The notes below the pieces were generated by a model. That model was not told the origin of the DNA. It did not search any database and saw nothing but the letters and a program-made list of their open reading frames with translations. The translations under genes were made by a program, and so were the position numbers. Shown here piece after piece: positions 2,960 through 31,256 of a stretch of DNA of 64,000 bases. Each line of letters begins with the position of its first letter. Within the stretch, counting starts at the first letter, position 1. Origin of the DNA: a virus. The stretch is taken from positions 177,427 through 241,426 of IMG/VR virus record IMGVR_UViG_3300007352_000001, one strand, 5' to 3'.

Positions 2960-2989
2960 ACCGGTACAAAGGTGCGAGAACTATGCCAA
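2960..2989 (-). promoter_or_regulatory. Repeated sigma-54-like promoter element, copy a
   Basis: Reading on the minus strand, TTGGCAT is followed after 7 bases by TCGCACCTTTG and then TACCGGTATG. The GG and GC dinucleotides are exactly 10 bases apart, as in -24/-12 (sigma-54) promoters. The terminal ATG is the start of the 2759-2959 gene. The upstream end overlaps the stop codon of the 2981-3154 gene. Confidence 0.7.
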
Positions 2990-3154
2990 CGTGTACGTGT
3001 GGCCTTTGGTGGCGCTCACGTACTTGTCGGCGCCGTACCATTTGACATGGTCGATCTCACCGTCGTCCGAGACGATGGTGGACCAGTGGGCCACCGTGTC
3101 GACCTTGAAGCGTTTCCTGTCCCCGTCACGGACTAGGGTGTCACCGGGTCGCAC
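2981..3154 (-). CDS. Small hypothetical protein, 57 aa
   Basis: Starts with GTG at 3154 preceded by GAGGGG at good spacing and overlaps the end of the 3141-3565 gene by 14 bases. The sequence (VRPGDTLVRDGDRKRFKVDT and onward) is short-strand-rich and ends GHTYTLA, compatible with a small beta-barrel. It is the last gene of the operon that begins at 4860. Function unknown. Confidence 0.65.
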   Translation of the reverse strand: MRPGDTLVRDGDRKRFKVDTVAHWSTIVSDDGEIDHVKWYGADKYVSATKGHTYTLA

Positions 3155-3565
3155 GGCGCCCCTCAAACCACCGTGCCCACCTCGGTAGCTTGGCCTTGAT
3201 CCCGTCCAGCTGCTCATGGATTCGCGTCTCGTCACCGCGTCCGTGGTCGGCCGCGTCGTAGCAGAGCAAGCAGTAGAGCCCGAGCTGCCGCAGGACGGTG
3301 ATCTTCCGTTCCTCCCCGGCGGTGACGTCAGGCCAGAGTCGGGTGACTGCCAGACGGAGGGCGGACTTGCGGTGGTACTTGGCGAAGTTTCCTGCCGTGC
3401 CACAATGCTCGACCGCTGCCGCGTCCGGGTTGCGGAGGGTGTGTACGTGGCGCTCGAACTCCGGCCGGCACGTGGCGCACAGCAAGTCGGCTTCAGCGGC
3501 GCGCTCGCGGCAGTGATGACAGCGTTGGGCGTACGGGATCGGGTTCGGTTCGGTTCGTAGGGCAT
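3141..3565 (-). CDS. Zinc-finger hypothetical protein with an out-of-frame start (possible frameshift)
   Basis: The coding frame (139 codons before the stop at 3141) contains CHHC and CATC pairs near its start and a sensible C-terminus, but has no ATG, GTG or TTG at its 5' end. An ATG at 3565 reads MPYEPN and then falls into a poor frame because CGAAC is present three times in tandem (3543-3557). With two copies the ATG would run straight into NPIPYAQRCHHC. So this is either an indel in this genome, a phase-variable 5-base repeat, or a sequencing or assembly error. The gene lies between the 3571-4005 and 2981-3154 genes in one operon. Confidence 0.55.
3543..3557 (-). repeat. Three tandem copies of a 5-base unit (CGAAC on minus strand)
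   Basis: The plus strand reads GTTCG three times. It sits 3 codons into the apparent start of a zinc-finger gene, and copy number determines which frame the ATG enters. See the gene at 3141-3565. Confidence 0.9.
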
Positions 3566-3570
3566 CACGA

Positions 3571-4005
3571 TCACCGGCGAGCGCAGGACGGCGCAGCGGC
3601 CTTGAGGCCGGCGCGATCGAGCGCCTCGTCCACTGCTTCCTTGCGACTGCGGCAGAAGGTTGAGGACATCTTGTCGCCGATGGTGGCGGTCCAGTACCCG
3701 CCCCGTCGGCGCCAGACTGCGCCGACGTCCCCACCGTCCGAGAGGATCCGATAGCTGCTCGGGCCGTCGTACTTGAACGTGATCATCGTCACCTTGCCGA
3801 GGGTCAGCACCACGCGATCGCCCGGCTTCGACAGCCGCAGCGCGCGGCGCATCATCGCCAACGCACTCTTCGCCGCCGGGGCCATGCTCAGGTGAGTCTC
3901 TTCGAGCGTGAGCGGGTTGCGTAGGAAGTAGTGCCCGTTCTCGTGCCGGCCCAGCGTCAGGCCGTGCGAGAGTGCGAAGGCGACCGCGGTCTTGTGCATC
4001 TGCAT
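3571..4005 (-). CDS. Hypothetical protein, 144 aa
   Basis: Begins MQMHKTAVAFALSHGLTLG and continues through two strand-rich segments (GDRVVLTLGKVTMITFKYD and GGYWTATIG) to a basic C-terminus. GAAGGG lies about 10 bases upstream of the ATG at 4005; an ATG two codons later is an alternative start. It is second in the operon led by the 4018-4860 gene. No catalytic motif seen. Confidence 0.7.
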   Translation of the reverse strand: MQMHKTAVAFALSHGLTLGRHENGHYFLRNPLTLEETHLSMAPAAKSALAMMRRALRLSKPGDRVVLTLGKVTMITFKYDGPSSYRILSDGGDVGAVWRRRGGYWTATIGDKMSSTFCRSRKEAVDEALDRAGLKAAAPSCARR

Positions 4006-4017
4006 GGTGAGTGCCCT

Positions 4018-4860
4018 TCACTTCGCCTTGCGCTGGATCTTCGGCCAGCGGGTCTTGTCGCGCGCGATCGCCTTCTCGTCGTCGACGTTGGACGCATGCT
4101 TGGTAGCCAAGGCGAGGGCGACCAGGTCGGCGCGATCGGCGTGGCTAGAGCGTATGCGCGGCGCGTCCTCACGATCGGTCTGCTCGTTCCAGTAGTCGAC
4201 GTCGCGCAGCTCGCGGGCCAGATCCTCGTACGCGGACCGCTCGGTGTTGTAGAGCACCCAGCCCTTGACGGGGTGAAGGACGGCCTTCGCCAGCTTCTCG
4301 GCGCGCTTGGTATCGCGCTCAGCCTTGCGGGCTTCCTTCGCTTCACGCGCCTCGCGGCCGACGCGCCCCTCGCCCCAGAACTTCGAGGCCGGCGCCGACG
4401 GGAAGCAGACGGTGCACATCGTCTCGCCGTATTCCTTGACCGCTTCCTCTTCGGTCGCGCCGGAGAGGGTGAACACCCATGAATACTGCGTGGTCGGGAA
4501 GCAGGTCGAGCAGCCGCGCGTGCTGTGGACGTGGCCGTTGCCGTTGGTGACCAGGTAGAAGCGTGACCAGGGGCGCCGCGCGTATTCCTCGTGCAGCGGC
4601 GCCGCCGCGGCGCGGGCGGCATCGCGCTTGCGCGTGTACGCGGCGACCTCGGCTTCCGCCTCATCGAGTCCATGGAACCGGAAGTCCGGGCCGTACCTGT
4701 CGGGATGCCGCTCGTGCAGTAGCTTCGAGTCCTCCAGCAGGCGCTCGACACGGTTGGTCAGGTAGGACAGCCGGAAGATCGCGTCGTACTCGATCCCCAC
4801 CAGGCGGGCCAACTCGGTGTCGATCTCGACCGGCGTCTGCGTGCTGAGTGGCTTCGACAT
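4018..4860 (-). CDS. Hypothetical phage protein with two CxxC sites, 280 aa
   Basis: The N-terminal half is helical and charged. The centre has STRGCSTCFPTTQYSW and, about 30 residues later, GETMCTVCFPSAP, giving two CxxC pairs likely to hold one zinc. The C-terminal part is a Lys/Arg/Glu/Ala-rich probable coiled coil. From memory, proteins with this CSTCFP...CTVCFP arrangement are common in actinobacterial phages and lack an assigned role. The start at 4860 is the ATG of promoter-like copy b, with no Shine-Dalgarno sequence, implying a near-leaderless mRNA. Confidence 0.75.
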   Translation of the reverse strand: MSKPLSTQTPVEIDTELARLVGIEYDAIFRLSYLTNRVERLLEDSKLLHERHPDRYGPDFRFHGLDEAEAEVAAYTRKRDAARAAAAPLHEEYARRPWSRFYLVTNGNGHVHSTRGCSTCFPTTQYSWVFTLSGATEEEAVKEYGETMCTVCFPSAPASKFWGEGRVGREAREAKEARKAERDTKRAEKLAKAVLHPVKGWVLYNTERSAYEDLARELRDVDYWNEQTDREDAPRIRSSHADRADLVALALATKHASNVDDEKAIARDKTRWPKIQRKAK

Positions 4861-4890
4861 ACCGGTACAAAGGTGCGAAGAGCGTGCCAA
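4861..4890 (-). promoter_or_regulatory. Repeated sigma-54-like promoter element, copy b
   Basis: On the minus strand TTGGCACGCTCT is followed by TCGCACCTTTG and TACCGGTATG. This is TGGCACG-N4-TCGCA, one mismatch from the sigma-54 consensus TGGCACG-N4-TTGCW. The ATG starts the 4018-4860 gene, and the element directly abuts the stop codon of the 4891-5520 gene. Confidence 0.75.
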
Positions 4891-5520
4891 TCAGTCCCCC
4901 AGGAACCTGTTGCGATTGTCCATGGGGATGAGGGCGCCGTGCCCAGCGTCGACGATTGCTTGGTAGAGTCGCCTAGCACCTGCTTTGAGGTGTGCGACTT
5001 GTACCGGGTCGATGTGGGCGAGCCAGTGAACCTGGTCGACGGTGTAGCTGGCTGGATGACTCGCCGGCAGCTGCAGGACGTCGTTCAGTACCTTGCGTAG
5101 ATCGTGCGCGACCTTCAGCGGCTTCCTTGGGTCGTCAGGCTTCGCCACTGGCGGCTTGAGCCCTTGGCGGAAGAGTGCCTGGCGAAGTGCGTTGCCGCCG
5201 AAGTCGTAGTGATCCGACCGGCCGACGTAGATGTACGGCGCCGCACTCTCGAACACCCAGCGTGTCGGGTCATAGACGCGACCGTCTGGAAGGTCGATCC
5301 AGCCGTGGTTCGAGAACGGCCGGCCCGTGAAGATGTTCCCTTCGGCGATCGGGCCGTGCCAGATGCCGTACGAGAGCTGTGAACGTGCCGGCAGAAGCTC
5401 AGAACGAAAGACCTGTGACGCAACCTGGTAGCAGTGACCAGGCCATCCTTCGACCGGCCAGTTGATCAGGGCGGCAACGGTCCGCACGTCGAGTGCGCGT
5501 TTGCTGAGACGAGTCGGCAT
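4891..5520 (-). CDS. Papain/transglutaminase-like fold protein (putative)
   Basis: A 209-residue protein with a Cys-His-Asp order typical of papain-like and transglutaminase-like folds: WPGHCYQVASQVF (Cys about residue 30), then SNHGWIDLPDGRVYDPTRW (His about 71, Asp about 82). The rest is helical. Catalytic activity is not proven by this pattern; a protease, amidase or inactive fold member are all possible. The start is the ATG at 5520 just after promoter-like copy c, with no Shine-Dalgarno sequence. A second protein with the same kind of triad lies at 62317-63438. Confidence 0.6.
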   Translation of the reverse strand: MPTRLSKRALDVRTVAALINWPVEGWPGHCYQVASQVFRSELLPARSQLSYGIWHGPIAEGNIFTGRPFSNHGWIDLPDGRVYDPTRWVFESAAPYIYVGRSDHYDFGGNALRQALFRQGLKPPVAKPDDPRKPLKVAHDLRKVLNDVLQLPASHPASYTVDQVHWLAHIDPVQVAHLKAGARRLYQAIVDAGHGALIPMDNRNRFLGD

Positions 5521-5551
5521 CTATCGGGACAAAGGTGCGAGAGGTATGCCA
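5521..5551 (-). promoter_or_regulatory. Repeated sigma-54-like promoter element, copy c
   Basis: On the minus strand TGGCATACCTC is followed by TCGCACCTTTGTCCCGAT and AGATG. The GG-to-GC spacing of 10 is kept, but the end reads CCGATAGATG instead of CCGGTATG, so the ATG is shifted 3 bases. It is back to back with copy d, forming a divergent promoter pair. Confidence 0.7.
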
Positions 5552-5577
5552 CCGATCGCGTCGATCTGCTAGAGGAG

Positions 5578-5607
5578 TTGGCACAATCCCTGCACTTTTG
5601 TCCCGGT
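5578..5607 (+). promoter_or_regulatory. Repeated sigma-54-like promoter element, copy d
   Basis: TTGGCACAATCCCTGCACTT is followed by TTGTCCCGGT and then ATG at 5608. Here the -12 part is CTGCA, closer to the sigma-54 TTGCA. It launches the long plus-strand run of genes starting at 5608. GAGGAG lies just upstream of it, too far from the ATG to serve as its ribosome binding site. Confidence 0.7.
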
Positions 5608-5775
5608 ATGGATGCATTGACCGCTGAGTTGTTGGAGGCCGCAAAGCAGGTGTTCGAGTCGACCACTGAGTGCCGGCACGGCCACTGGTTGGTGCCGAAT
5701 GCAGCGGTGCGTCGCCTGGTCGTCGCGACTGAGGCCCTCGATCCAACCTGGCGCCCGGCCTCGGAGGAAGCGTGA
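5608..5775 (+). CDS. Small hypothetical protein, 55 aa
   Basis: Starts at the ATG that ends promoter-like copy d; no Shine-Dalgarno sequence lies between. Sequence MDALTAELLEAAKQVFES begins an amphipathic helix, and one CRHGHW patch follows. The stop overlaps the GTG start of the next gene. Family unknown. Confidence 0.7.
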   Translation: MDALTAELLEAAKQVFESTTECRHGHWLVPNAAVRRLVVATEALDPTWRPASEEA

Positions 5776-5993
5776 GCAACGTCCCCATCAAACCGTTCAA
5801 CGATCGCCAGGCGATCGCGTACGCCGACCGCATCGAGAGCGGTGGAGTCGTCGTCATCATCTGCAACCGGTGCCGCGGCGAGGTGAAGCGGCACAAGGTG
5901 AAGCCGACACTGGCGAAGCTCGTGCTGTCGCAGTGGAACCTCGACAACGGCGGTTTCCCACTCGCCGCGTGCCAGCGGTGCAAGGAGCGTTGA
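5772..5993 (+). CDS. Small zinc-binding hypothetical protein
   Basis: A 73-residue protein (GTG start overlapping the previous stop) with two CxxC pairs: ICNRC about residue 32 and ACQRCKER at the C-terminus, enough for one tetrahedral zinc site. Its stop overlaps the ATG of the HD-domain gene. A DNA- or RNA-binding ribbon is likely but the role is unknown. Confidence 0.7.
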   Translation: MSNVPIKPFNDRQAIAYADRIESGGVVVIICNRCRGEVKRHKVKPTLAKLVLSQWNLDNGGFPLAACQRCKER

Positions 5994-6619
5994 TGCCCAA
6001 GGTCAGAGAGACGGACATTCTGCACGAAGCCGGCGACTACTGGGTGAAGCGAGTGGCCAGAGGATTCGAGGTGTACCGAAACGGCCTGACCCACGCCGTG
6101 CGTGTCGCGAGCGTCGGCGACGGCCCCGGCCCGCGCCTTGGCATTGAGCGAGCGAAGGCCGAGGCTGATCGTCTCTATGCGACAGACTTCGTCGCCACTG
6201 CGCAGCGCATCGCCACCGAGGCCCACGCCGGCCAGACCAGAGCGTTCGGCCCCCAGGCCGGGCAGCCGTACATCATCCACCCCACCGCGGTCGCCGGCCG
6301 CTTCCAGGATGATCCTGTCAAGCAAGCGATCGGTTGGCTGCACGACACCGTCGAGGACACGGCCAAGACCGATCATCCGGTAACCTTCGACGACCTCCGT
6401 GCCGCCGGTTTGCCCGAAGAGGTCGTCACTGGCGTAGACGCAATGACGCGCCGTCAGGGCGAGGCGTACCACGACTTCGTCGTGCGCTGCTCGCGACATC
6501 CGCACGCGCGGCACGTGAAGCTCGCCGACCTCGGCGACAACATGGCCACGTTGCCCGAGGGGCACGGGCTCAGGAAGCGGTACGTCAAGGCGCTCGTGCT
6601 GCTCGCGGAGGCCGAATGA
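5993..6619 (+). CDS. HD-domain phosphohydrolase (MESH1/RelA-SpoT hydrolase-like)
   Basis: About 208 residues. The central part matches the HD fold of (p)ppGpp hydrolases: AHAGQTRAFGPQAGQPYIIH with PTAVA (first His region), then GWLHDTVEDT (the HD pair and adjacent ED), and later KLADLGDNM (third metal ligand region). Known relatives hydrolyse ppGpp or NADPH-type nucleotides; phage copies are proposed to alter the stringent response or nucleotide pools. There is no synthetase domain. It is coupled to both neighbours by overlapping stop and start codons. The fold is well supported; the substrate is not. Confidence 0.85.
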   Translation: MPKVRETDILHEAGDYWVKRVARGFEVYRNGLTHAVRVASVGDGPGPRLGIERAKAEADRLYATDFVATAQRIATEAHAGQTRAFGPQAGQPYIIHPTAVAGRFQDDPVKQAIGWLHDTVEDTAKTDHPVTFDDLRAAGLPEEVVTGVDAMTRRQGEAYHDFVVRCSRHPHARHVKLADLGDNMATLPEGHGLRKRYVKALVLLAEAE

Positions 6620-6765
6620 GACCGCGCAAGTGTCCACGATGCAACGGTCGACTGGCTCTGCTTGGGGCGACGGCTGGATCGCAGAAGCGTTGGTACTGCA
6701 CCACGCGCGGCGGCTGCGGCCACGTGTGGAGTCGTGTCGACGGCAAGTGGGTCGCGTTGTCATGA
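6616..6765 (+). CDS. Zinc-ribbon protein, 49 aa
   Basis: MRPRKCPRCNGRL opens the ribbon and WYCTTRGGCGHVW closes it, giving CxxC and CxxxxxC ligands separated by about 20 residues. The basic first residues suggest nucleic-acid binding. Start and stop both overlap neighbouring genes by 4 bases. Confidence 0.75.
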   Translation: MRPRKCPRCNGRLALLGATAGSQKRWYCTTRGGCGHVWSRVDGKWVALS

Positions 6766-6998
6766 CCGAGCTGCAGCGCCGTGCGCTGGCTCGCGCGATC
6801 AAGGCGTATCCCGAGTCGATCATCGCGACCGGCTCTGGTGACCGAGTGACGCTGGCGTCACTCCACACCAGAGGGTTGCTGACGCGCACTGTGCGACGCG
6901 AGGCGCGCCAGGAAGCGGACCGGGCGTACGCGTACAAGGCATCCGACCTCGTCATGGAAGAGTGGCGCGCGATCTGCGCAAGAAAGGCGGCACCGTGA
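6762..6998 (+). CDS. Hypothetical helical protein, 78 aa
   Basis: An Arg/Ala-rich protein beginning MTELQRRALARAIKAYPES. Residues 30-50 (TLASLHTRGLLTRTVRRE) look like a winged-helix recognition end, so it may be a small DNA-binding protein. It overlaps both neighbours. The domain suggestion is weak. Confidence 0.65.
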   Translation: MTELQRRALARAIKAYPESIIATGSGDRVTLASLHTRGLLTRTVRREARQEADRAYAYKASDLVMEEWRAICARKAAP

Positions 6999-7570
6999 AG
7001 ATCACCAACACTTCACTGTATCTCACCAGGAACCTGCGACGGATCGTCGCCCGCGTCGCGGCCGAGGAGCTGACGTCCGAGCAGCGTGCCGGCATCATCT
7101 CGGTGCGCTTCGAGACGCGGAGAGGGTCACGGAAGGGGCCGTGCACGAGCGTCGCAGTCGGTCGCACCGACAACAAGACCGCGCGCTGTGCGGTCAGCCT
7201 GCCAGAGCAGAGCACGGAGCCGGAGTACGTCGCCGTCGCCCTCGCCCGCGCCTTCGCCGAAGCGAAGGGAGTGAGCCAGCGGCAGATGCAGGAAGTGAAG
7301 CGCTACGGCTTCAAGACCGGCTGGCACACCTTCTACTCGTCAGTGGTCGACATCCCGATCACGAAGCGAGCGCCGCGTATCAAGGCGCGGCCGACGTCGT
7401 TCGCCAAGCTCGTGCACGGGAAGCAGAACGCCGAGGCACGCGTGCGCGAGTGGGAGCGCAAGCAGAAGCTCGCTACGACCAAGTTGAAGGTCTGGCGCGC
7501 GAAGGTGCGTTACTACGATCGGAAACTGGAGAAGCGCAGGCCGAAAGAGGAGGCCGGTGCCACGGCCTGA
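6995..7570 (+). CDS. Hypothetical protein with C-terminal basic coiled coil, 191 aa
   Basis: GTG start at 6995 overlaps the previous stop. The N-terminal 120 residues are mixed alpha/beta (a segment PEYVAVALARAFAEAKGVS resembles a helix-rich core), and the last 60 residues are dense in Lys/Arg/Glu with heptad spacing. It ends the first plus-strand gene run, before a 350-base non-coding stretch. No family recognised. Confidence 0.7.
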   Translation: MKITNTSLYLTRNLRRIVARVAAEELTSEQRAGIISVRFETRRGSRKGPCTSVAVGRTDNKTARCAVSLPEQSTEPEYVAVALARAFAEAKGVSQRQMQEVKRYGFKTGWHTFYSSVVDIPITKRAPRIKARPTSFAKLVHGKQNAEARVREWERKQKLATTKLKVWRAKVRYYDRKLEKRRPKEEAGATA

Positions 7571-7706
7571 CCCACCTGCCGCCAGAGGTTAAAACAACAC
7601 CGCGCTTTTGTAACAGCACCGGGCCGGAGGCTGGCGCTGAGCATGCCGACGCGATATAGGACCGGGGGCTGATAGGCCCCGTGCCGGTCACCTGCCCGGT
7701 GACCTT

Positions 7707-7744
7707 AACCGCCCCGCACGTCCTGCCCGGACGCCGGGGCGGTT
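7707..7744 (+). terminator. Strong hairpin, probable terminator
   Basis: AACCGCCCCG (7707-7716) pairs perfectly with CGGGGCGGTT (7735-7744). An inner stem CGTCC/GGACG (7719-7723 with 7729-7733) extends it. Only a short T-run follows, so intrinsic termination is likely but not certain. A separate 7-bp hairpin (7686-7692 with 7698-7704) lies just upstream. Confidence 0.55.
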
Positions 7745-7749
7745 CACGT

Positions 7750-7779
7750 TTGACAACGCGACAAGATCTGGGGTATGCG
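7750..7779 (+). promoter_or_regulatory. Sigma-70-like promoter candidate for the helicase operon
   Basis: TTGACA at 7750-7755 is followed, after 18 bases, by TATGCG (7774-7779), or after 17 by GTATGC. This differs from the repeated sigma-54-like elements used elsewhere and suggests the replication genes use a different polymerase form. Confidence 0.45.
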
Positions 7780-7787
7780 ACGCATCA

Positions 7788-7834
7788 CCTTCTAGTGGGA
7801 GACGTCTCACGACCGATGCCTTCTAGCGGGGACC
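7788..7834 (+). repeat. Operator-like direct repeat with palindrome
   Basis: CCTTCTAGTGGGAGAC at 7788 and CCTTCTAGCGGGGAC at 7819 are spaced 31 bases apart, close to three helical turns, with GAGACGTCTC (7799-7808) between. The position just downstream of the TTGACA-type promoter suits a repressor or attenuator site. Confidence 0.4.
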
Positions 7835-7919
7835 GGTGGGGTGGCGCTGGGCGCTGGCCAGTAATCCTGGACGTTGACCGGCGCCGCTCCTCGGTGATGC
7901 GGTTGGATGTGGTGGGGTG

Positions 7920-12415: not shown

Positions 12416-12451
12416 AGTGTGGTACATACGGCATGGCGGTTGGGGTGGCGG

Positions 12452-13707: not shown

Positions 13708-13715
13708 GGGAGATC

Positions 13716-13982
13716 ATGGGGGACAAGACACGAGGGTTGTACGGCAAGTTCTACGTCGCGCGCGTGGACGAGTCCGACATGCCTGGTGGAAAGCACCAAG
13801 GATGCGACTACTTCGTGCTCGACCTCTCTCACGACCCGTACGCTGGTCCGGCGATCCAGGCGTACATCGACGCGTGCAAAGACGAGTACCCACTGCTCGC
13901 CGAGGATCTCCGCAAGAAGCACCTCGGTGAAAAACGTCCGGCGCAGGGAGTCGCCACGGACGCCGAACCGGAGGACGCATGA
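13716..13982 (+). CDS. Small conserved phage protein, 88 aa
   Basis: The core DESDMPGGKHQGCDYFVLDL with SHDPYAGPAIQAY resembles a short protein found in many phages and bacteria, with no assigned function. The ATG follows GGGAGATC. The stop overlaps the tubulin-like gene start (ATGA), so it may be co-expressed with it. Confidence 0.75.
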   Translation: MGDKTRGLYGKFYVARVDESDMPGGKHQGCDYFVLDLSHDPYAGPAIQAYIDACKDEYPLLAEDLRKKHLGEKRPAQGVATDAEPEDA

Positions 13983-15136
13983 CCAACGTCAACATCAAGC
14001 TGCCAATCCTCGACATTGAGGATTACGACATCCCGCACGAACGTGCCGGCCAGGTGAGCAACGAGATCCAAGGCTCGGTGCAGTACGCGTTCATCGGTTC
14101 CGGTCAGGGTGGTTGTCGCTTGGCGCGTGAGTTCTACCACCTCGGCTACCGCAAGACGCTCTGCTTGAACACGGCGCCGCAGGACCTGCTGCTGGTCGAC
14201 TTGCCGGATACGCAGAAGCTCCTGCTCGACATCGGTCAAGGCGGTGCCGGCAAGAACATGGAGCGTGGCGAGAAGGCCGCGGTGGCGCACCGGCAGGAGA
14301 TCTACGATCTCATGCGGCGAGTCTTCGGCAAGGTCGACCACATCATCATCTGCGCCTCGGCCGGTGGCGGCTCGGGTGGCGGGAGCGTGTTCGCGCTCAT
14401 CATGGTCGCCAAGCGGTACCTGCGTTACATCGGCTACGACGATGTCGACCAGCGCGTCGGCGTGATGGTGACGCTGCCGACGCGCGGCGAAGCCAGCTCG
14501 CCGAAGGTGGCGGTCAACGCCTACGACCTAGTGCAGCGGCTCTCTGATCTCGCCGAGGCCAAGCAGGTCACGCCGCTGATCATCATCGACAATGACAAGA
14601 TCAAGCAGCTGTACTCGGGACTGCCGGTGGCGACGTTCTGGCCGACGCTCAACAAGAACGTCGCGCAACTCTTCGACGCCTTCAATCGACTCTCGACGCA
14701 GAACTCGCCGTACACCACGTTCGATCCCGAGGACTACCGTACGATTATCACTGGCGGCGGTCACTGCATCTTCGGGCTCACGACCGTGAAGGGCATGGAC
14801 ACCGAGACGGTCGAGGAGACACGGATCTCGAACGCCCTGAAGGCCAACTTGGAGAAAACACTCCTGGCCGGAGGTTTCGATATCACCACGGCGACGCACG
14901 CGGCGTGCTGCGTGGTCGGCGGCGAGCAGATGTTCGCCCAGCAGGCCGGGCTTCAGGATGCGATCGAGTACGCGTTCGACACCCTGACGCAGATGACCGG
15001 GGAGGCGATGGTGCACCGCGGCATCTACCAATCGGAGCGTGAGCTGTTGCTCGCCTACACCATCTTGAGTGGACTCAAGCGACCTGATGAGCGGTACTTG
15101 GAGTTGAGCCGGCAGGCGCAGCGCGCATACCCATGA
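13979..15136 (+). CDS. FtsZ/tubulin-superfamily GTPase
   Basis: A 385-residue cytoskeletal GTPase. The T1 loop is FIGSGQGGCRLAREF (about residues 38-52), the tubulin signature T4 loop is ASAGGGSGGGSVFAL (about 126-140), IIIDNDKIKQLY (about 201-212) matches the FtsZ segment PNDKL, and TTFDPEDYRTII (about 246-257) matches the T7 loop, keeping both acidic residues that complete GTP hydrolysis across the subunit interface although the Asn is replaced. There is a 30-residue N-terminal extension. Known phage homologues (PhuZ, TubZ) form filaments that centre or segregate phage DNA; this one looks closer to FtsZ-like sequences. It is coupled to the 15133-15498 gene, a candidate partner. Confidence 0.85.
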   Translation: MTNVNIKLPILDIEDYDIPHERAGQVSNEIQGSVQYAFIGSGQGGCRLAREFYHLGYRKTLCLNTAPQDLLLVDLPDTQKLLLDIGQGGAGKNMERGEKAAVAHRQEIYDLMRRVFGKVDHIIICASAGGGSGGGSVFALIMVAKRYLRYIGYDDVDQRVGVMVTLPTRGEASSPKVAVNAYDLVQRLSDLAEAKQVTPLIIIDNDKIKQLYSGLPVATFWPTLNKNVAQLFDAFNRLSTQNSPYTTFDPEDYRTIITGGGHCIFGLTTVKGMDTETVEETRISNALKANLEKTLLAGGFDITTATHAACCVVGGEQMFAQQAGLQDAIEYAFDTLTQMTGEAMVHRGIYQSERELLLAYTILSGLKRPDERYLELSRQAQRAYP

Positions 15137-17825: not shown

Positions 17826-18074
17826 ATGCTAGCGTTCGCCGGCATGGATCTGGTGTTGTCCTACCTGTTCACGGGCGCGGTCGTCGGCGTCGTCCAGTGG
17901 CCGTACGTCGAGCTACTGGCCGACGAGGCGATCCGTGCCCGGAACGCTGCACCGCAGCTGCGCCGGCCACTTCTGGTCGTGACCTTCACCTTGGTCGTCA
18001 TCTTCTGGCTTCCGGCCGGCCTTTGGTACGTCTACCGGCGCGTTGGCACGCTCCTCGCACGTTTGCACCGGTAG
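17826..18074 (+). CDS. Small membrane protein, two predicted segments
   Basis: Up to 82 residues with two hydrophobic spans, LVLSYLFTGAVVGVVQWPYV and LLVVTFTLVVIFWLPAGLWY, and a basic C-terminus. The start is uncertain (ATG 17826 or 17844, neither with a good ribosome binding site). Its last 30 bases coincide with promoter-like copy h. A holin is possible from the topology but there is no lysis context. Confidence 0.6.
   Translation: MLAFAGMDLVLSYLFTGAVVGVVQWPYVELLADEAIRARNAAPQLRRPLLVVTFTLVVIFWLPAGLWYVYRRVGTLLARLHR
18043..18074 (+). promoter_or_regulatory. Repeated sigma-54-like promoter element, copy h
   Basis: TTGGCACGCTCCTCGCACGT is followed by TTGCACCGGTAG. Matches TGGCACG-N4-TCGCA, but the 3' end is CCGGTAGG, so no ATG is present; the downstream gene starts 35 bases later at 18109 with its own GAGGGAGG. 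This copy shows that the conserved DNA does not depend on encoding a start codon. Confidence 0.65.
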
Positions 18075-18108: not shown

Positions 18109-18693
18109 ATGGCACTGGTGAATACCCGCAGGGCGGTCGCAGAGCAGCGGACGTTCTCGAAGCGCTTGCTCGACGCGGCGCGTGAGTGCGCCCGGCTCTC
18201 GCACCTGAAGCACTTCTTCGAGGATCGGCACGACGCGGCCAAGACCGTCCTGTTCGCTGCTGTCGAGGCCGAGCCGGGCGTGGTCGTCGGGCCGGGCAAC
18301 TCCCTCGGCAAGAAGCAGGGCTTCGAGTTGGGCTCGATTCAGCGCAACGAGAAGTACACCTACAAGCTCGACAGCGACGCGCTGTTCGACGCGGTCAAGC
18401 GCGGCAAGATCTCGAAGGCGGACTTCGGGGCGTTGGTCAGCGGCGTGAACTCCGAGCTGTGCGCGCAGCTGTTCAACGGCGACACGCTACCGGTCATCCT
18501 CACCAAGGAACAAGAGAAGGATGACAAGGGGAATCCGCTGACGATCGACAAGTTCGTCCCAAGCACGCTGGCGCTCGCGCCGTTCATCGCGTTGGCCGAC
18601 GACATCACGCGTGTGGACGACGAGATCTTCGCGCCGCTGCTCCTGCCCGACCTGCACGTGGCGCCGAAGCGTAAGAAGGCGGCGGCGTCGTAA
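18109..18693 (+). CDS. Hypothetical protein in a single-gene expression cassette
   Basis: 194 residues, soluble, mixed alpha/beta, with a Lys/Ala-rich tail (APKRKKAAAS). It has its own promoter-like element (18043-18074), a GAGGGAGG ribosome binding site and a 13-bp hairpin terminator immediately after, an arrangement unique in this window and typical of an abundantly made product such as an ssDNA-binding or structural protein. No sequence family is recognised; the ssDNA-binding idea is only from context. Confidence 0.75.
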   Translation: MALVNTRRAVAEQRTFSKRLLDAARECARLSHLKHFFEDRHDAAKTVLFAAVEAEPGVVVGPGNSLGKKQGFELGSIQRNEKYTYKLDSDALFDAVKRGKISKADFGALVSGVNSELCAQLFNGDTLPVILTKEQEKDDKGNPLTIDKFVPSTLALAPFIALADDITRVDDEIFAPLLLPDLHVAPKRKKAAAS

Positions 18694-18710: not shown

Positions 18711-18750
18711 CCGCACCGCCAGTCGGTTCCCCCTACTGGCGGTGCGGTTT
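18711..18750 (+). terminator. Intrinsic terminator
   Basis: CCGCACCGCCAGT (18711-18723) pairs perfectly with ACTGGCGGTGCGG (18735-18747), with an 11-base loop, followed by TTT. This is the strongest hairpin in the window and lies 17 bases after the stop of the 18109-18693 gene. Confidence 0.8.
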
Positions 18751-18768
18751 CCTGGGGGAGGTGTGGGG

Positions 18769-19781: not shown

Positions 19782-19782
19782 T

Positions 19783-19812
19783 CTGGCACAGATCTCGCAC
19801 CTTTGTCCCGGT
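19783..19812 (+). promoter_or_regulatory. Repeated sigma-54-like promoter element, copy e
   Basis: CTGGCACAGATCTCGCACCT is followed by TTGTCCCGGT and the ATG of the ArdC-like gene at 19813. The GG-GC spacing of 10 is kept. There is no Shine-Dalgarno sequence between the element and the ATG. Confidence 0.7.
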
Positions 19813-20760
19813 ATGAGCAACGCTGACGTGTACAAGAAGGTGACCGAGCGGGTCGTGGGCCTGCTCGAACAGGGAACGGTGCCGTGGCACAAGCCGTGGG
19901 TCGGCGGGCAGCGAGGCCTGCCCCGCAACCTGATCTCGAAGCGGCCGTACCACGGCTGCAACGTGTTCTTCCTCGCCGTGCAGCAGTACGAGTCGCCCTA
20001 CTGGCTGACCTTCCACCAGCTCAAGCAGCTCGCCGGCTGCGACCAGCCCTTCTGCAAGAAGCCGCACGAGCACGGGCTCGTGATCAAGGGCGAGAAGGGT
20101 ACCCCGATCGTGTTCTGGCGGACGCGGCAGTTCACGCAGGTCAACCAGGCGACGGGCGAGGATGAGACGGTCAACGTGCCGCTGGCGCGCATCTACACCG
20201 TCTTCAACGTCGCGCAGGTGACCGGCATCGAGGACAAGCTGCCCGATCGCGCCGCGCTGCCAGACAACGACCTCGCCCCGCTCGACGCGTGCGAGCGCAT
20301 CATCCACAACATGCCACAGCGCCCGGAGATTCGGCACCAGGAGCAGCGCGCGTACTACCGACCGCTTGCCGACTTCGTGAACCTGCCGCTCTTCGACACG
20401 TTCGAGTCGGCCGAGGCCTACTACTCGACGGCCTACCACGAGCTGGGCCACGCGACCGGTCACAAGTCGCGGTTGAACCGCGCGACGTTGAACGACCTCG
20501 TCGACTTCGGCGACACGAACTACTCGCAGGAGGAACTGGTCGCTGAGTTCACCGCGGCCTTTCTCTGCGGCATCGCCGGCATCGAGAACACGACGGTCAA
20601 CACGTCCGCGGCCTACCTGAAGGGCTGGATCAGTCGACTGCAGGCGGATCCGCAGCTGCTGACGCGCGCAGCGTCGCAGGCGCAGGCTGCCGCCGACTAC
20701 ATCTTGCACGTGCAGCCCGAGCAGGCGGTGGAGGGGGAGTCGGATGCCGTCGCGGAATAG
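19813..20760 (+). CDS. ArdC-like antirestriction protein (ssDNA-binding N-domain plus zincin domain)
   Basis: 315 residues. The N-terminal part matches the ArdC/DUF1738 domain: VTERVVGLLEQGTVPWHKPW, then a YHGCNVFFLAV segment and LVIKGEKGTPIVFWR. The C-terminal zincin motif is TAYHELGHATGHKSRL (HExxH plus the TGH/SRL continuation). ArdC proteins bind ssDNA and protect incoming DNA from restriction; the protease-like site is needed for some effects. It has its own promoter-like element and an almost leaderless start, suggesting early or strong expression. It overlaps the next gene by 17 bases. Confidence 0.85.
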   Translation: MSNADVYKKVTERVVGLLEQGTVPWHKPWVGGQRGLPRNLISKRPYHGCNVFFLAVQQYESPYWLTFHQLKQLAGCDQPFCKKPHEHGLVIKGEKGTPIVFWRTRQFTQVNQATGEDETVNVPLARIYTVFNVAQVTGIEDKLPDRAALPDNDLAPLDACERIIHNMPQRPEIRHQEQRAYYRPLADFVNLPLFDTFESAEAYYSTAYHELGHATGHKSRLNRATLNDLVDFGDTNYSQEELVAEFTAAFLCGIAGIENTTVNTSAAYLKGWISRLQADPQLLTRAASQAQAAADYILHVQPEQAVEGESDAVAE

Positions 20761-21076: not shown

Positions 21077-21357
21077 AGCGCCCGCTCGCGACGCGGACAC
21101 GCCGCCCGCCGTTGGCCGGCCCGTTCGCCGTGCTCATCGTCCCCGAAGAGAAGTTCATCCTGACTCAGGATGTGGTCCCGCCGGTGCCAGTGCATCCGCG
21201 CTCGCACCGGCTCACGCAGCTGCCAGTGGTGGCGTCGCTCACGAGCGAGCAGGCTGCGCTGTGCGTCTGGGCGTTCCCCAAAGGTGGACTCGCCGACGTC
21301 GCTAAGCGATTGCGTCAGCTCGCTGCGGTGCTCGAAGGTACTCAGGAGCTGCTCTAG
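21073..21357 (+). CDS. Hypothetical protein, 94 aa
   Basis: Basic N-terminus (MKRPLATRTRRPPL) followed by a beta-rich middle and a C-terminal helix (VAKRLRQLAAVLEGTQELL). ATGA overlap with the gene before. Unknown. Confidence 0.65.
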   Translation: MKRPLATRTRRPPLAGPFAVLIVPEEKFILTQDVVPPVPVHPRSHRLTQLPVVASLTSEQAALCVWAFPKGGLADVAKRLRQLAAVLEGTQELL

Positions 21358-21408
21358 GCACGGCATTCGCATGTCTGTGCCGATAGAGAAAGGACCACAT
21401 GGTGCACG

Positions 21409-21597: not shown

Positions 21598-21606
21598 GAG
21601 GATCAC

Positions 21607-23823: not shown

Positions 23824-23885
23824 ACCTTGCAATCGCGGACATACTGTGAAAACTTCTGCGCCCGTGAGTCAGGTGAGGGTGCAAG

Positions 23886-24957: not shown

Positions 24958-24961
24958 GCCG

Positions 24962-26091: not shown

Positions 26092-26588
26092 AGCGGAAGG
26101 ATGCGCTGCGACTGCTTGACTTGGTCGAGGTCACCATCGACGGCCAGCAGCACGTGATGCCGCGGGTGTTCAACGAGGTCTGCGTCGTGAACGCACTGCC
26201 CACCGACGATCTGCGATCGTATGTTGGCGCGCACAGTACGCCACCGTACCCGTCGCATCCCGAGCCACGTATTAGGGAACTCGCCCGTGGCGTTGTCGAA
26301 GGTCGCGTGTTCTGCGATCGCATGGTCTGCGATCGCGGCAATCTCGACATGATCTTCATGCCGCTTGTGTTCGATACCGCGATCGCGCGAGCCAGGCTCG
26401 TGATGCGCGGTGGCGCATTGTACGCCAACATGACCGACACGCTGGGCTCGTACGGCGTCAACGGCTACCCGACCTTTCACACGGTTGGCATTATGAACCG
26501 CGAGGATGGTGAACGGTTCTACCGACTCATCGAGTCGATGCAGGAGACTTTGCGCGCCATGGAGAGCGCGCCACTTGAGGGAGGATGA
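26088..26588 (+). CDS. Hypothetical protein, 166 aa
   Basis: GTG start overlapping the previous stop, preceded by GGAGG. Alpha/beta composition, with FCDRMVCDRGNLDMIFMP and GVNGYPTFHTVGIM as the most distinctive parts. No catalytic motif recognised. Confidence 0.65.
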   Translation: MKRKDALRLLDLVEVTIDGQQHVMPRVFNEVCVVNALPTDDLRSYVGAHSTPPYPSHPEPRIRELARGVVEGRVFCDRMVCDRGNLDMIFMPLVFDTAIARARLVMRGGALYANMTDTLGSYGVNGYPTFHTVGIMNREDGERFYRLIESMQETLRAMESAPLEGG

Positions 26589-26593
26589 GGACC

Positions 26594-26914
26594 ATGCCCA
26601 AACGAGCCACGATCCACACGCTGAAGGAGCTGGAGCAGCGACGCGACGCTCGCACTGCCAAGCCGGACGCCTGTGATCTTCGCTGTGAGAACTCGAACCC
26701 GTTGAACCCGTGCACCTGCCGCAAGTGCGAGGGCCGGTGCCACGGGTCGCGCAAGATCACGCCGCAGCATCTCGAAGCCCTCTGCGATCGCAAGCTCCGC
26801 GACCCAGAGCTGTCGTCGGCCGAGAACCGTTTCTGGATGCATCAGCTACGAGCGCTCATGTCCTACGAGGCCGAGCAGCAGCACCGTCGCCGCAGACGGA
26901 AGCGCGCCGCCTGA
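26594..26914 (+). CDS. Basic zinc-binding hypothetical protein, 106 aa
   Basis: Holds a dense Cys cluster, CDLRCENSNPLNPCTCRKCE and GRCHG (about residues 27-52), and ends in an Arg-rich tail HRRRRRKRAA. GAGGATGAGG precedes the ATG. Likely nucleic-acid binding; function unknown. Confidence 0.65.
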   Translation: MPKRATIHTLKELEQRRDARTAKPDACDLRCENSNPLNPCTCRKCEGRCHGSRKITPQHLEALCDRKLRDPELSSAENRFWMHQLRALMSYEAEQQHRRRRRKRAA

Positions 26915-27168
26915 TGGACGAGAACAAGAAACGCCGGCTGGTCGAGCTGCTCTATCGGATCCGACCGTGTTGTGGGTTGTGCAAACACGGGTCGTTCCGG
27001 CCGGGACAGTACTTCGGCATGTGCGGGAAGAACACCTACGAGCATGGCAAGCACACCGGTCCGCCGCGGCAGCTCTCAATCTCGCGCTATGGCGTCTGCC
27101 TTGCGCCTGAGCTAGACGAGTCCAGGCTGCAGACTCTTGAAGGGTTTGGCGAGTTTGTCGACGGCTGA
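26914..27168 (+). CDS. Small zinc-binding hypothetical protein, 84 aa
   Basis: The core RPCCGLCKHGSFRPGQYFGM followed by CGKN and a later GVCLAPE gives a four-Cys pattern (CxxC, C, C). Its ATG overlaps the previous stop. It is the last gene before promoter-like copy f, which begins at its stop codon. Confidence 0.65.
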   Translation: MDENKKRRLVELLYRIRPCCGLCKHGSFRPGQYFGMCGKNTYEHGKHTGPPRQLSISRYGVCLAPELDESRLQTLEGFGEFVDG

Positions 27169-27197
27169 TGGCACGGTCCTCGCACCTTTGGCCCGGT
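27168..27197 (+). promoter_or_regulatory. Repeated sigma-54-like promoter element, copy f
   Basis: TGGCACGGTCCTCGCACCTT is followed by TGGCCCGGT and ATG at 27198. TGGCACG-N4-TCGCA again has one mismatch to sigma-54 consensus. The ATG opens only a 7-codon frame (MTGSASV); the likely gene begins at GTG 27208. Confidence 0.7.
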
Positions 27198-27207
27198 ATG
27201 ACTGGGA

Positions 27208-27474
27208 GTGCAAGTGTTTGAACTGGGAGACCAGGTGGTCGTCGTCGGGCCGGGCTCGAATCCGTGGGTTGGTCGCACTGGGACCGTTGTCCAGGTCCTC
27301 GGCGACGACGGGCCGTTCCCGTATGTTGTGAGCGTCGACGACACGCAGATCGTCGCGCAGGTGGCTGATCTGCAGCTGCATGCGCGGCCGTTGCCGGCGC
27401 TCGATCCGGACGACGATCTCCCGTGGGACCGTTGGCAAGCTGAGTGGGAGGCGCAATGCCGCGTAAGAACGTGA
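27208..27474 (+). CDS. Small SH3/KOW-like protein (putative)
   Basis: 88 residues starting FELGDQVVVVGPGSNPWVGR with TGTVVQVL, a pattern like KOW or SH3-type barrels (GDxVxVxxG....GxVxxV). The C-terminus is acidic. It overlaps the next gene. The initiation codon is a GTG, reached after a mini-ORF, so translation may be by re-initiation. Confidence 0.55.
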   Translation: MQVFELGDQVVVVGPGSNPWVGRTGTVVQVLGDDGPFPYVVSVDDTQIVAQVADLQLHARPLPALDPDDDLPWDRWQAEWEAQCRVRT

Positions 27475-28106
27475 AGGCCCAACCGACCGACGAGCTGGAA
27501 GACGTCGCCGCGGAGAATCCGGAGGGTGAGGAGGCCGAGGTCGAGGAGAAGGCCAAGCCGATCTTTCGCAGCGCGCTCTCAGCTAGCGTCGCCGATCAGA
27601 TCTGGAACGAGTTCACGGCAAGTGGTGGACGGACGCAGTTCGGTCCGGATGACAAGGAAGTCATCGTCGAGGTCACGCCCGACGAGAAGAGCCTCGTGAT
27701 CCGTGCACGGGCGAGCCGACCGGCGTACGCCGATCAGCCGAAAGAGTTCATCAAAAAGGTGGCGGGCCGCGTCGAGTCGACGGCCAAGCGGGCGATCGAG
27801 GAAGTGTACCTGCGAGCACTCAGCGAGGCCCAGCGTTTGATGCTGATCGCCGAGCTGTTCGATCTCTTCGAGCGCAAGCTCGTGATCGGCGACAACGAGG
27901 AAGCACTGGCGCGCATCGAGGCTATCGCCTCGCGCACCAAGCGCACGCTCTTCTACGAGCAGATGACCGAGGACGACGTCGTGTTCTGGCTCGACGAGGC
28001 GCGCATCGTGTACGAGGAGTTGGGGCCGTGGGTGCCGAAGCCGAAGGTTCCGCCGTTGGATCCGCCGAAGCCAGAGGTCGACAAAGAGGACGAGGACGAA
28101 GAGTGA
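27456..28106 (+). CDS. Acidic helical hypothetical protein, 216 aa
   Basis: Acidic start (EELEDVAAENPEGEEAEVEE-like) and end (EVDKEDEDEE) around a basic-helical centre with ITRVE-type repeats absent. Long helices such as SEAQRLMLIAELFDLFERKL suggest a coiled bundle. The ATG follows GGGAGG. No enzyme motif. Possible scaffold or inhibitor; not recognised. Confidence 0.65.
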   Translation: MPRKNVKAQPTDELEDVAAENPEGEEAEVEEKAKPIFRSALSASVADQIWNEFTASGGRTQFGPDDKEVIVEVTPDEKSLVIRARASRPAYADQPKEFIKKVAGRVESTAKRAIEEVYLRALSEAQRLMLIAELFDLFERKLVIGDNEEALARIEAIASRTKRTLFYEQMTEDDVVFWLDEARIVYEELGPWVPKPKVPPLDPPKPEVDKEDEDEE

Positions 28107-28405
28107 CCATCGTGGTGTGGTTTGCCCGCGTCGGTACCATGGCGCTTGGGTTCAGCTGCACCACGGTGGGCGCCGCGTGGATGGACGCGTCGCTGATTGT
28201 CTGCGGGGTCCTGATCGTGCTACTGAGGGGCCTCGCGTTGTGGTGGTGGGAGGTGTGGGATGGGGCAGTATGCGGTCAACACGTCAGTCTCGATCGAACG
28301 GTCACGGGGCGAGATCGAGTCCACGCTCATGAAGTACGGCGCGTCACGGTTCGCGTACCTGAACGATGCCGAGCATGGGCGAGTCGTCATCGGCTTCACA
28401 GCTAA
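28103..28405 (+). CDS. Probable small membrane protein overlapping the next gene
   Basis: GTG start overlaps the previous stop (GTGA). Two hydrophobic spans (TIVVWFARVGTMALGFSC and SLIVCGVLIVLLRGLALWWW) lie in the first 55 residues. The remaining 45 codons run in a different frame through the 28260-28733 gene, so either the C-terminus is long and overlapped or the true gene is shorter by an unseen frameshift. Confidence 0.4.
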   Translation: MTIVVWFARVGTMALGFSCTTVGAAWMDASLIVCGVLIVLLRGLALWWWEVWDGAVCGQHVSLDRTVTGRDRVHAHEVRRVTVRVPERCRAWASRHRLHS

Positions 28406-28733
28406 CAATCGGCTGCTCCGCTTCGAGCTGCCGGTTCCGCGGCGTGATGATCCCAAGTATCAGCGTGACGGCCGCAACGCGAAGCGATCGGCCGACGCGC
28501 AGTACAAGGCGTGGGATCAAGAGTGTCGCTCGCAGTGGCGTTCGCTCGCGCTCTCGATCAAGGCGAAGCTGGAGTCCGTCGCCGCCGGTATCGAGACGTT
28601 CGAGACCGCCTTCCTCGCGCACATCGTCGTGCCGGGTGAGAACAAGACCATGGGCGAGTGGGCGATCCCACAGCTCGCCAAGGCATACGAGACGCAGAAG
28701 CGGATGCCTGCGCTCATCCCGGACTTGCGGTGA
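28260..28733 (+). CDS. Conserved phage protein (MGQYAxxTSV type), 157 aa
   Basis: Begins MGQYAVNTSVSIERSRGEIE and STLMKYGASRFAY, a start I remember from a small uncharacterised protein present in many phages. An LRFELPVPRRDDP segment follows and the C-terminal half is helical. GGGAGGTGTGGG precedes the ATG. The role is unknown. Confidence 0.75.
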   Translation: MGQYAVNTSVSIERSRGEIESTLMKYGASRFAYLNDAEHGRVVIGFTANNRLLRFELPVPRRDDPKYQRDGRNAKRSADAQYKAWDQECRSQWRSLALSIKAKLESVAAGIETFETAFLAHIVVPGENKTMGEWAIPQLAKAYETQKRMPALIPDLR

Positions 28734-28737
28734 CGTC

Positions 28738-29412
28738 ATGACACTGCAGGAGCGGGTGTTCAGGTTCATTGACTCGACGGCACTGCACGGCGCCACCGAC
28801 GACGAGATCGCGGCAGCATTGAAGCGCCAGCCTCAGAAGGCGAGCGCGAAGCGACAGGCGTTGTGGGTTCTCAACCAGCTGACGCAGGACGGGCGCACAC
28901 GTACTTCACGGACTGGGCAGCAGGAAACCGTCTGGGTAACGAAAGATGCGGTGCGCCGAGCATACGGACTGGCACCGCTGGTTCCGCTGCAGGGTACCTC
29001 TCGGCGCACTGATCTCGCCTCACGCCTCTCGTACGCCGCGGTCAAACCGACCTTGGCGAAGAGACACATGAGTACGCTCATGGCGCTCGCCGAGTACATC
29101 GCGGCGACGGGATCGAAGCCGACGGGATATGAGCTGCTTGAATATATCAAGGCACGCAGTGGTGCGCCGCTGCTGCTGGATGTGAACAGCGTGCGGCCGA
29201 ATCTCACCGGATTGAAGGATAGAGGGCTCGTCAAGAAGGTCGGGCCGCTTCGCCATTGCACGAAGTCTCCGACAGGCAAGCGAGCGAACGAGTGGCAGTT
29301 GACGGACAGTGGGCGCGCGATGCTGCAGAACGTCGCGCAAACGGATGAACCGGTTGTGGTTGAGGAGGTGGGGCATGCAGTTGGTGGAACCAAGGGTGCA
29401 TCTGATCGGTAA
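28738..29412 (+). CDS. Putative winged-helix DNA-binding protein, 224 aa
   Basis: Two winged-helix-like modules: ALHGATDDEIAAALKRQ with GRTRTSRTGQQETVWV, and ITGSKPTGYELLEYIK-like ATGSKPTGYELLEYIKARSG with NLTGLKDRGLVKKVGPL. The second contains a typical helix-turn-helix and wing. It ends with an acidic tail overlapping the ThyX start. It could be a late or middle regulator; the target is unknown. Confidence 0.6.
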   Translation: MTLQERVFRFIDSTALHGATDDEIAAALKRQPQKASAKRQALWVLNQLTQDGRTRTSRTGQQETVWVTKDAVRRAYGLAPLVPLQGTSRRTDLASRLSYAAVKPTLAKRHMSTLMALAEYIAATGSKPTGYELLEYIKARSGAPLLLDVNSVRPNLTGLKDRGLVKKVGPLRHCTKSPTGKRANEWQLTDSGRAMLQNVAQTDEPVVVEEVGHAVGGTKGASDR

Positions 29413-30172
29413 GCCGCAGTTGCAATGGGACGCAGTCAACAACTACCTGCACGACATTGGGGGTGAGGCGTGGTTCGATCGCATCGAACCGTTGTACCAG
29501 GCTGGCGACATCACCGACGCCGAGGCGATGGTCGAGTTCGCTGGTCGGCTCTGTTACCGCGCGTGGGCACCGGGCTTGAACGCGAACGTGACCAAGGTGC
29601 GCGAGGACAGCGGCGTGTACCTGCGCAACATCCTGCAGCAACGCCACGGCTCGGTGCTGGAGCACGCATACTGGATCTTCATCTTCCAAGACGTCAGCCG
29701 GGTCTGGACGCACGAGTGGGTGCGCCACCGCATGGGCGTCTCGATCAGCCAGGAGTCGCTGCGCTACGTGCGGCTCGACAAGCTGAAGATGTGGATCCCA
29801 CCATGGGCGCAGCAGGATCTGGAGTTCTTCAACCGCGCCGTCGCACTCGTCGAGGACATGGAGGCTTTCCAGGTCTGGATGGCCGAGCACTTCAACCTCG
29901 ATCGCGAGGGCATGCCCTTCGACGAGAAGAAGGCCAAGACGTCGTTCATGCGCCGCTTCGCGCCAGAGGGATTGGCGACGTCGATGGTGTGGGGCGGCAA
30001 CACGCGAGCGGTGCGCCACGTGCTGGAGATGCGCAGCGACACCGCGGCCGAGGAAGAGATGCGCCTTGTCACCGCGCAACTCGGACACATCATGCAGGAC
30101 GAAGCACCCAAGCTCTTCGGCGATTACGTCGTCGAGGACAATCACTTCAAGACGGAGTTCCGGAAGGTCTGA
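29375..30172 (+). CDS. thyX: Flavin-dependent thymidylate synthase
   Basis: About 265 residues. The ThyX signature is VRHRMGVSISQESLRY (about residues 110-125): RHR, then eight residues to Ser, one more than the usual RHRx7S, as remembered from phage ThyX proteins. Substrate-region QRHGSVLEHAYW (about 86-97) is also present. ThyX converts dUMP to dTMP with FAD, NAD(P)H and methylene-tetrahydrofolate. GAGGAGGTGGGG precedes the ATG at 29375, within the previous gene's end. It provides thymidine for phage replication, in line with MazG and the HD-domain enzyme upstream. Confidence 0.9.
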   Translation: MQLVEPRVHLIGKPQLQWDAVNNYLHDIGGEAWFDRIEPLYQAGDITDAEAMVEFAGRLCYRAWAPGLNANVTKVREDSGVYLRNILQQRHGSVLEHAYWIFIFQDVSRVWTHEWVRHRMGVSISQESLRYVRLDKLKMWIPPWAQQDLEFFNRAVALVEDMEAFQVWMAEHFNLDREGMPFDEKKAKTSFMRRFAPEGLATSMVWGGNTRAVRHVLEMRSDTAAEEEMRLVTAQLGHIMQDEAPKLFGDYVVEDNHFKTEFRKV

Positions 30173-30187
30173 CCACAGGAGGACGGT

Positions 30188-31225
30188 ATGCCTGACACGG
30201 AAGCGATGGAGGCGGTCAACGGCGTGAAGGAAGTGCCTATCACGATCGAGGACGCGCAGGAGTGGGTGAGAACGTCCGACGACCTCGGGCTGGTTGGCAT
30301 GGCCGGCCCGCCGCGGCCGTTCGTTCATCTCTTCTTCACCGTGTTGGAGTACCGGCACTTCCCACCTGACAATCGCGTGCTCAACGACGAGTTCAAGCTC
30401 GCCTCGATCAAGTGGGGCGACGTCGTGTGGATGTTCGTCCGCGTGCCGGCGTCGTACCGGCCGCAGGTCGAGGCGGTCGCTGCCGAGATGGGGCTGCGCC
30501 TCGGCGATGGGTTGCCCACGATGCTCGGCGGGCCAGACGGCCCGCAACGGTTCCCGATCGACGGCGACAACGTGTACACGTTGGAGAACGTCGGCGGTTC
30601 ACAGGTCTACCAGTGGACACCGCAGGAACGCGACCTGGCGCTCAAGGACGAGCTGGCGCGCATCCAGCGCATCGTCGACACCAAGCGGGTCTCTCCCGAC
30701 GACGTCAAGGCGAGCTTGGCGCCGGTCGATGGACGGGTCGGCCACGCGAGTCATCCAGACACCAAGCGCAAGCCGCCACCCGCGGCCGAGCTGCTCGTGC
30801 GGCTGCGTGCGAATCCAAACGAGCGTATTCGGCTCGGCACCATCGGCCAGTTCGAGGCCGAAGATCTGATGGTGCTCGCTGGCGCGTTGGCGCCCGAGTT
30901 CACCGTCGTGTTCGACAAGGACCAGGAGATCTACGCCGGCAAGATGCCGGTGCGGATCTCCATGAGTCCTGGCGCCCGCCAGCTGATCGCCCGCTACCCA
31001 AACCGCGAGCAGGCGATTCTGCACTACGTCACGGCTGCATTCTCGGCCTTCGACAAGGACGCCGTCGAGGCTGGTGGCTACGTCAAGGCGCTCGAAGATT
31101 CGCCCAACGACGTGCGGTTGATGTGCGTCTTCACGCCTGGCGACGGAGTCTTGGCCGAGGCTGAGATCATCAGCGTCGAGGAGTTTGAGCGCACACACGG
31201 CGCCGACCAGGGCCAGGGCAGCTAG
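30188..31225 (+). CDS. Hypothetical protein, 345 aa
   Basis: Preceded by AGGAGGA. Two domains: an alpha/beta N-terminal half (HLFFTVLEYRHFPPDNRVL, WMFVRVPASYRPQ), then a helical middle and a second alpha/beta half (MVLAGALAPEFTVVFDKDQE). The longest unassigned product of this region and last gene before promoter-like copy g. No motif recognised. Confidence 0.7.
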   Translation: MPDTEAMEAVNGVKEVPITIEDAQEWVRTSDDLGLVGMAGPPRPFVHLFFTVLEYRHFPPDNRVLNDEFKLASIKWGDVVWMFVRVPASYRPQVEAVAAEMGLRLGDGLPTMLGGPDGPQRFPIDGDNVYTLENVGGSQVYQWTPQERDLALKDELARIQRIVDTKRVSPDDVKASLAPVDGRVGHASHPDTKRKPPPAAELLVRLRANPNERIRLGTIGQFEAEDLMVLAGALAPEFTVVFDKDQEIYAGKMPVRISMSPGARQLIARYPNREQAILHYVTAAFSAFDKDAVEAGGYVKALEDSPNDVRLMCVFTPGDGVLAEAEIISVEEFERTHGADQGQGS

Positions 31226-31226
31226 C

Positions 31227-31256
31227 TTGGCACAGTCCTCGCACCTTTGAGCCGGT
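31227..31256 (+). promoter_or_regulatory. Repeated sigma-54-like promoter element, copy g
   Basis: TTGGCACAGTCCTCGCACCT is followed by TTGAGCCGGT and ATG at 31257. It begins right after the stop of the 30188-31225 gene. Gives a leaderless or nearly leaderless mRNA for the zinc-ribbon gene. Confidence 0.7.

Follow-up and report, generated by a model that had tools for sequence, protein, structure and literature searches.

The DNA analysed here (the window, 64,000 nucleotides) forms the very end of a virus record that is 241,426 bases long. The window contains eight copies of a conserved 31-bp element, which an earlier note had read from the letters alone as sigma-54-like promoters scattered over both strands. 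All eight are verified at the coordinates and strands given there, and one further, weaker copy was missing from that account. Positions below are those of the window, and positions in the record carry a G.

2960..2989, minus strand: element copy (G180383 in the record); the ATG of gene 2759-2959 directly adjoins, with a 3-nt predicted leader and no Shine-Dalgarno (SD) sequence, and the operon runs on to a mom gene, 1965-2765
4861..4890, minus strand: element copy; the ATG of gene 4018-4860 directly adjoins
5521..5551, minus strand: element copy, ending CCGATAG; the ATG of gene 4891-5520 follows after a 5-nt predicted leader
5578..5607, plus strand: element copy; the ATG of a small gene, 5608-5775, directly adjoins
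18043..18074, plus strand: element copy, beginning before the preceding gene has ended; gene 18109-18693, with SD GGGAGGT, follows after a 39-nt predicted leader
19783..19812, plus strand: element copy; the ATG of an ArdC-like anti-restriction gene directly adjoins
19813..20760, plus strand: ArdC-like gene (PF08401 at residues 5-131, and PF18818)
21356..21387, plus strand: weaker element copy, AGGCACGGCATTCGCATGTCTGTGCCGATAGA; SD AAAGGA, ATG at 21399
27168..27197, plus strand: element copy; the adjoining ATG opens only a 7-codon ORF
31227..31256, plus strand: element copy; the ATG of a 57-codon zinc-ribbon-like ORF (31257-31430) directly adjoins

The copies at 5521..5551 (minus) and 5578..5607 (plus) are divergent and lie 26 bp apart. 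Two of the adjoining start codons are backed by homology. The ATG of gene 4018-4860 is backed as the true start because homologue alignments begin at residue 1-8, and the near-leaderless ArdC start because the Pfam match starts at residue 5. Six copies in the window end in ATG; with 27168 discounted, the five genes said to have their ATG as the end of the element are upheld, as are predicted transcription starts only a few bases from the ATG (a leader of 3 nt, but 5 nt at copy 5521). The gene downstream of copy 27168 likely starts at GTG 27214, with SD GGGAG. The near-leaderless 7-codon mini-ORF (27198-27221) overlaps this likely GTG start, possibly as translational coupling.

Allowing 3 mismatches or fewer, TGGCAYNNNNNYYGCACCTTTGNNCCGGTATG matches the window at exactly these eight sites and matches none of 100 dinucleotide-preserving shuffles of it. 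Scanning the complete record doubles the family: 15 copies are present at up to 3 mismatches, the reversed pattern gives 0, and the weaker copy at 21356 brings the total to 16. This element search spanned the whole record, and the stretches otherwise examined covered 200 of its 241 kb. A 31-column matrix of the 16 copies (~46 bits) scores all 16 at no less than 32 bits. In the 140 kb examined first no other site exceeds 6 bits, and in 60 kb more, from the structural region, none exceeds 3 bits; the best reversed-sequence site reaches 15 bits. The 16 copies are a discrete family with no intermediate sites, and the conserved unit is one block, -26 to +4, that is never split.

The copies lie at 13.9 kb, 113.9–153.7 kb and 180–209 kb of the record. 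The whole-record search finds no copy in the ~100 kb from 13.9 to 113.9 kb, a stretch that includes T4-like capsid and tail-sheath genes. All 16 copies point at the gene that follows. Intergenic DNA makes up 8.5% of the 200 kb examined, and the copies occupy minimal gaps, often beginning a few bases past the preceding stop codon. The genes directly downstream, a minority of them with an assigned function, include the ArdC anti-restriction protein and the small gene leading into the Mom-family DNA-modification gene of the element-headed operon (1965-2765). The element-headed genes thus appear to be of a non-structural class, perhaps early or middle.

The record also has another promoter family, which is sigma70-like and reads TTGAC(A/G)-N15-TGN-TA, with close variants. 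All of its sites are intergenic, at least three of them 10–13 bases before an ATG:

17806, 51283 and 53968, plus strand: sigma70-like sites in the window
G17162, plus strand, and G42471, G59156, G63326 and G104660, minus strand: sigma70-like sites in the record

The sequence TTGACA-N13-TATGC lies opposite two element copies; because it belongs to this separate family, its link to the element is judged coincidental. Motif discovery for late genes (24–84 kb) returned SD-like signals only. Elsewhere in the window, 13979-15136 reads as a Tubulin/FtsZ-like protein, which shares 24% identity with a protein of Bacillus phage G and is here found in a phage with no recognisable RNA polymerase beta/beta' subunits, and 44119-47800 holds a row of paralogous ~200-residue secreted-looking proteins. 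Dockerin-like CPGDCNGDG repeats and TPTPT linkers occur in phage proteins at 47817-48266 and at L082:9757-13062 and are a possible clue to the host.

The layout of the element is T(-26)GGCAY(-21)R(-20)...TCGCAC(-10)..TTTG(-5)..CCGGTA(+4), with the RNA start (+1) predicted at the GG after CC. The previously described ending CCGGTA(TG) holds as far as CCGGTA; the trailing TG lies outside the conserved core, after which eight copies read ATG and the other eight AGG, AAG, AGA or TGG. Of the 16 copies, 8 have their start codon at +4 or +6, no more than 5 nt from the predicted +1, so that these would be near-leaderless transcription units with a predicted leader of 3–5 nt and no SD; the anti-SD energies of this group, -1.9 to +1.9 kcal/mol, in part reflect the fixed sequence of the element itself. 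At the other eight, the start codon is 12–39 nt away and has an SD past the element (-5.6 to -13.1 kcal/mol). What is informative in this split is the displaced starts: each of them has an SD, and that SD lies downstream of CCGGT. Such a division fits an RNA that starts at the 3' end of the element, and therefore a promoter class. No RNA structure is found in the element (mean z +0.38), which makes it more likely that the element acts as DNA; an RNA element was rejected since no fold was found. We infer promoter activity and the start site from these features, and consider it very probable that the 16 copies are a real, well-supported promoter family.

The full element does not turn up beyond chance in 2.9 million viral contigs (IMG/VR) or in 84,980 genomes. 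It was rejected as a host motif: genome contigs hold it only twice, vs ~1.9 expected by chance. The sigma-54-like half followed by CACCTTTG has 33 matches in viral contigs, none of them continuing to CCGGTA, and these are judged to be chance. No close relative was found for the non-structural region of the phage. The nearest relatives found (e.g. L083, L096, L085) lack the element, and as fragments of the structural region they are uninformative.

Several observations bear on sigma-54 as the reader. GG at -25/-24 and GC at -13/-12, separated by 10 bases, are present in 16 of 16 copies. The exact -24/-12 spacing reported previously is thus correct in every copy, and it also holds against an independent sigma-54 matrix from 29 intergenic Salmonella sites (PMC3844500). 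Columns -26 to -11 score as high against this matrix in only 1 of 100,000 column permutations, and all 16 copies are among its top 31 of 399,712 sites. A consensus-only permutation test over 18 positions is weaker (612 of 200,000, ~0.3%). A single matrix was tested, picked because sigma-54 had already been proposed; with correction for ~20 known promoter classes, the column test still leaves a chance of ~1 in 5,000. The permitted variation also agrees with the matrix, with only C or T at -21 and only A or G at -20. There are departures: most copies score under the Salmonella minimum (median 10.7 vs 13.9); the element has C at -10, unlike the Salmonella set; and C stands at -14 in 14 of 16 copies vs T in 28 of 29 Salmonella sites. 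The known glnA sigma-54 site also has C at -14, so C is tolerated.

Conservation 3' of -12 does exceed what sigma-54 needs, with invariant sequence down to +4, and no isolated intergenic -24/-12 site of like quality was seen without the downstream half. Sigma-54 requires an activator. No conserved activator site is apparent, in that the 200 bp before the copies hold no common upstream word above random, and no sigma-54 activator protein (PF00158) was found in the phage; a host activator or a distant enhancer is conceivable. Of the proposed sigma-54 reading, promoter function and the -24/-12 fit are supported; C at -14, the missing upstream activator site and the missing activator leave reading by sigma-54 itself not established. 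Neither a sigma-54 gene nor a sigma70 region 2 is recognised in the record. The phage does encode a full-length PspA/IM30-family protein (G158134-158838, L076:14134-14838; PF04012, 4.8e-12), and nothing in the phage collection matches it. In E. coli the protein bound and held by PspA is PspF, a sigma-54 activator (PMC9239133), and by analogy the phage protein gives a weak hint of a tie to sigma-54 use. Counting against sigma-54, a part of the weak homology is to phages of Actinobacteria, a group most members of which are not known to have sigma-54.

The best single hypothesis, which we hold with somewhat better than even confidence, is that the element is read by host polymerase together with sigma-54 or a factor resembling it. 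The record encodes no detectable beta/beta' RNA polymerase, and host polymerase is therefore likely: RNA_pol_Rpb2_6 (PF00562) and Rpb1_2 (PF00623) are unmatched in it, in a search whose controls matched 14 of 14, which could miss very divergent subunits and which covers a record that may be incomplete. The phage would then use the element as a promoter at least 16 times, to drive genes that lie outside the structural block. The -26 to -11 half of the element would be read as a -24/-12 promoter by host polymerase carrying the host's own sigma-54 or a close functional equivalent, and the invariant stretches from -8 to -5 and from -2 to +4 would add a second, phage-specific requirement, such as a cofactor contact or a start-site rule, that confines the element to this phage. 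RNA starting at the GG after CC would yield near-leaderless mRNAs in half of the copies. We infer sigma-54 as the reader, and this role for the downstream block, from the resemblances set out above. If this is true, the phage would be an unusually clean case in which to ask how a virus drives a host sigma factor that depends on an activator, and its 16 natural variants, with and without a leader, allow a direct test of the start-site rule.

A less probable candidate is that host core polymerase works with an initiation factor encoded by the phage, an unrecognised sigma-like or activator protein requiring all 31 bp of the element, whose -24/-12 likeness would be convergent. The single -26 to +4 block, never split, favours this reading. 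C at -14 points the same way, as does the failure of the full element to appear above chance in 85,000 genomes or in other viruses. So does the annotation of five 28-bp copies in phage YuA as a 'putative sigma70 promoter requiring phage-encoded cofactor'. Small unassigned DNA-binding proteins are encoded, an HTH protein at 1552-1965 and a weak sigma-region-4-like helix at G170254; but no sigma70-type region 2 is found, and convergence would have to produce by chance a fit to the sigma-54 column profile of ~1 in 100,000. Of the suggested readers, an extra phage factor or a phage polymerase, no polymerase was found (the T7-type search had no working control), and an extra factor is possible, with no candidate identified.

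Also less probable is that the phage has evolved a composite promoter of its own, in which a -24/-12 core of sigma-54 type is joined to a start-site block. A phage factor recognising this block would replace the ATP-dependent activator, and host sigma-54 polymerase would make near-leaderless mRNAs with no enhancer.

Three further readings are each very improbable. Long near-invariant elements across the start site typify phage polymerase promoters, and this element is likewise long, nearly invariant and spans the start site; but a promoter for an undetected phage RNA polymerase has against it the lack of any RNA_pol_Rpb2_6 or Rpb1_2 match in the record and, weakly since no control genome matched in that search, of any T7-type match (PF00940). 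A translation or RNA-level signal at gene starts would explain why the element sits at start codons, in one orientation to the gene and outside the structural block, as the SAS of cluster K mycobacteriophages does (PMC3203893), but the element has neither anti-SD complementarity nor a fold, and eight copies have their start codon 12–39 nt off with its own SD. A role as an oriented operator to which a phage repressor binds, comparable to the L5 stoperators, would suit an asymmetric, oriented element in short intergenic gaps, but leaves unaccounted for both the sigma-54 spacing and the translation of genes with neither SD nor leader.

For sigma-54 as the reader, the closest precedent is Pseudomonas phage YuA, whose development depends on host sigma-54; such use by phages is called rare (PMC5053324). 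The YuA annotation lists three -24/-12 promoters, among structural and lysis genes. The arrangement and reliance on the host are alike, whereas the 16 copies here are placed outside the structural block, have in common a long downstream stretch that is invariant, and often abut the ATG; nothing in the YuA genome matches the element. The five 28-bp YuA repeats are also long, near-invariant and just upstream of several non-structural genes, including, as for one copy here, an anti-restriction gene. Their sequence is unrelated (CTTTACTTCTTCGGA...CACTATA) and their start codons lie farther downstream; the cofactor promoter sequence CTTTACTTCTTCGG...CACTATA has no match to the element. The Salmonella sigma-54 promoters (PMC3844500) share T-26 GG CA Y R, GC at -13/-12, A at -11 and the exact spacing, but the element has C not T at -14, C at -10, an invariant TTTG-NN-CCGGTA and no conserved activator site. 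Among mycobacteriophages, the cluster K SAS, a 13-bp motif containing AGGAG and proposed for translation (PMC3203893), is likewise repeated, asymmetric, beside non-structural start codons and nearly absent elsewhere. By its sequence the element is not an SAS: it lacks an SD, has anti-SD energy near 0 in start-adjacent copies and is placed like a promoter. Cluster O mycobacteriophages have promoters predicted to yield leaderless mRNAs (PMC4351075), but these are SigA-type, with -35/-10 rather than the -24/-12 of the element. Phage use of host sigma-54 is already known from YuA, and the element is most likely a variant of it; by analogy it looks like both YuA ideas combined, a -24/-12 core with a long phage-private block, in many copies and with near-leaderless starts.
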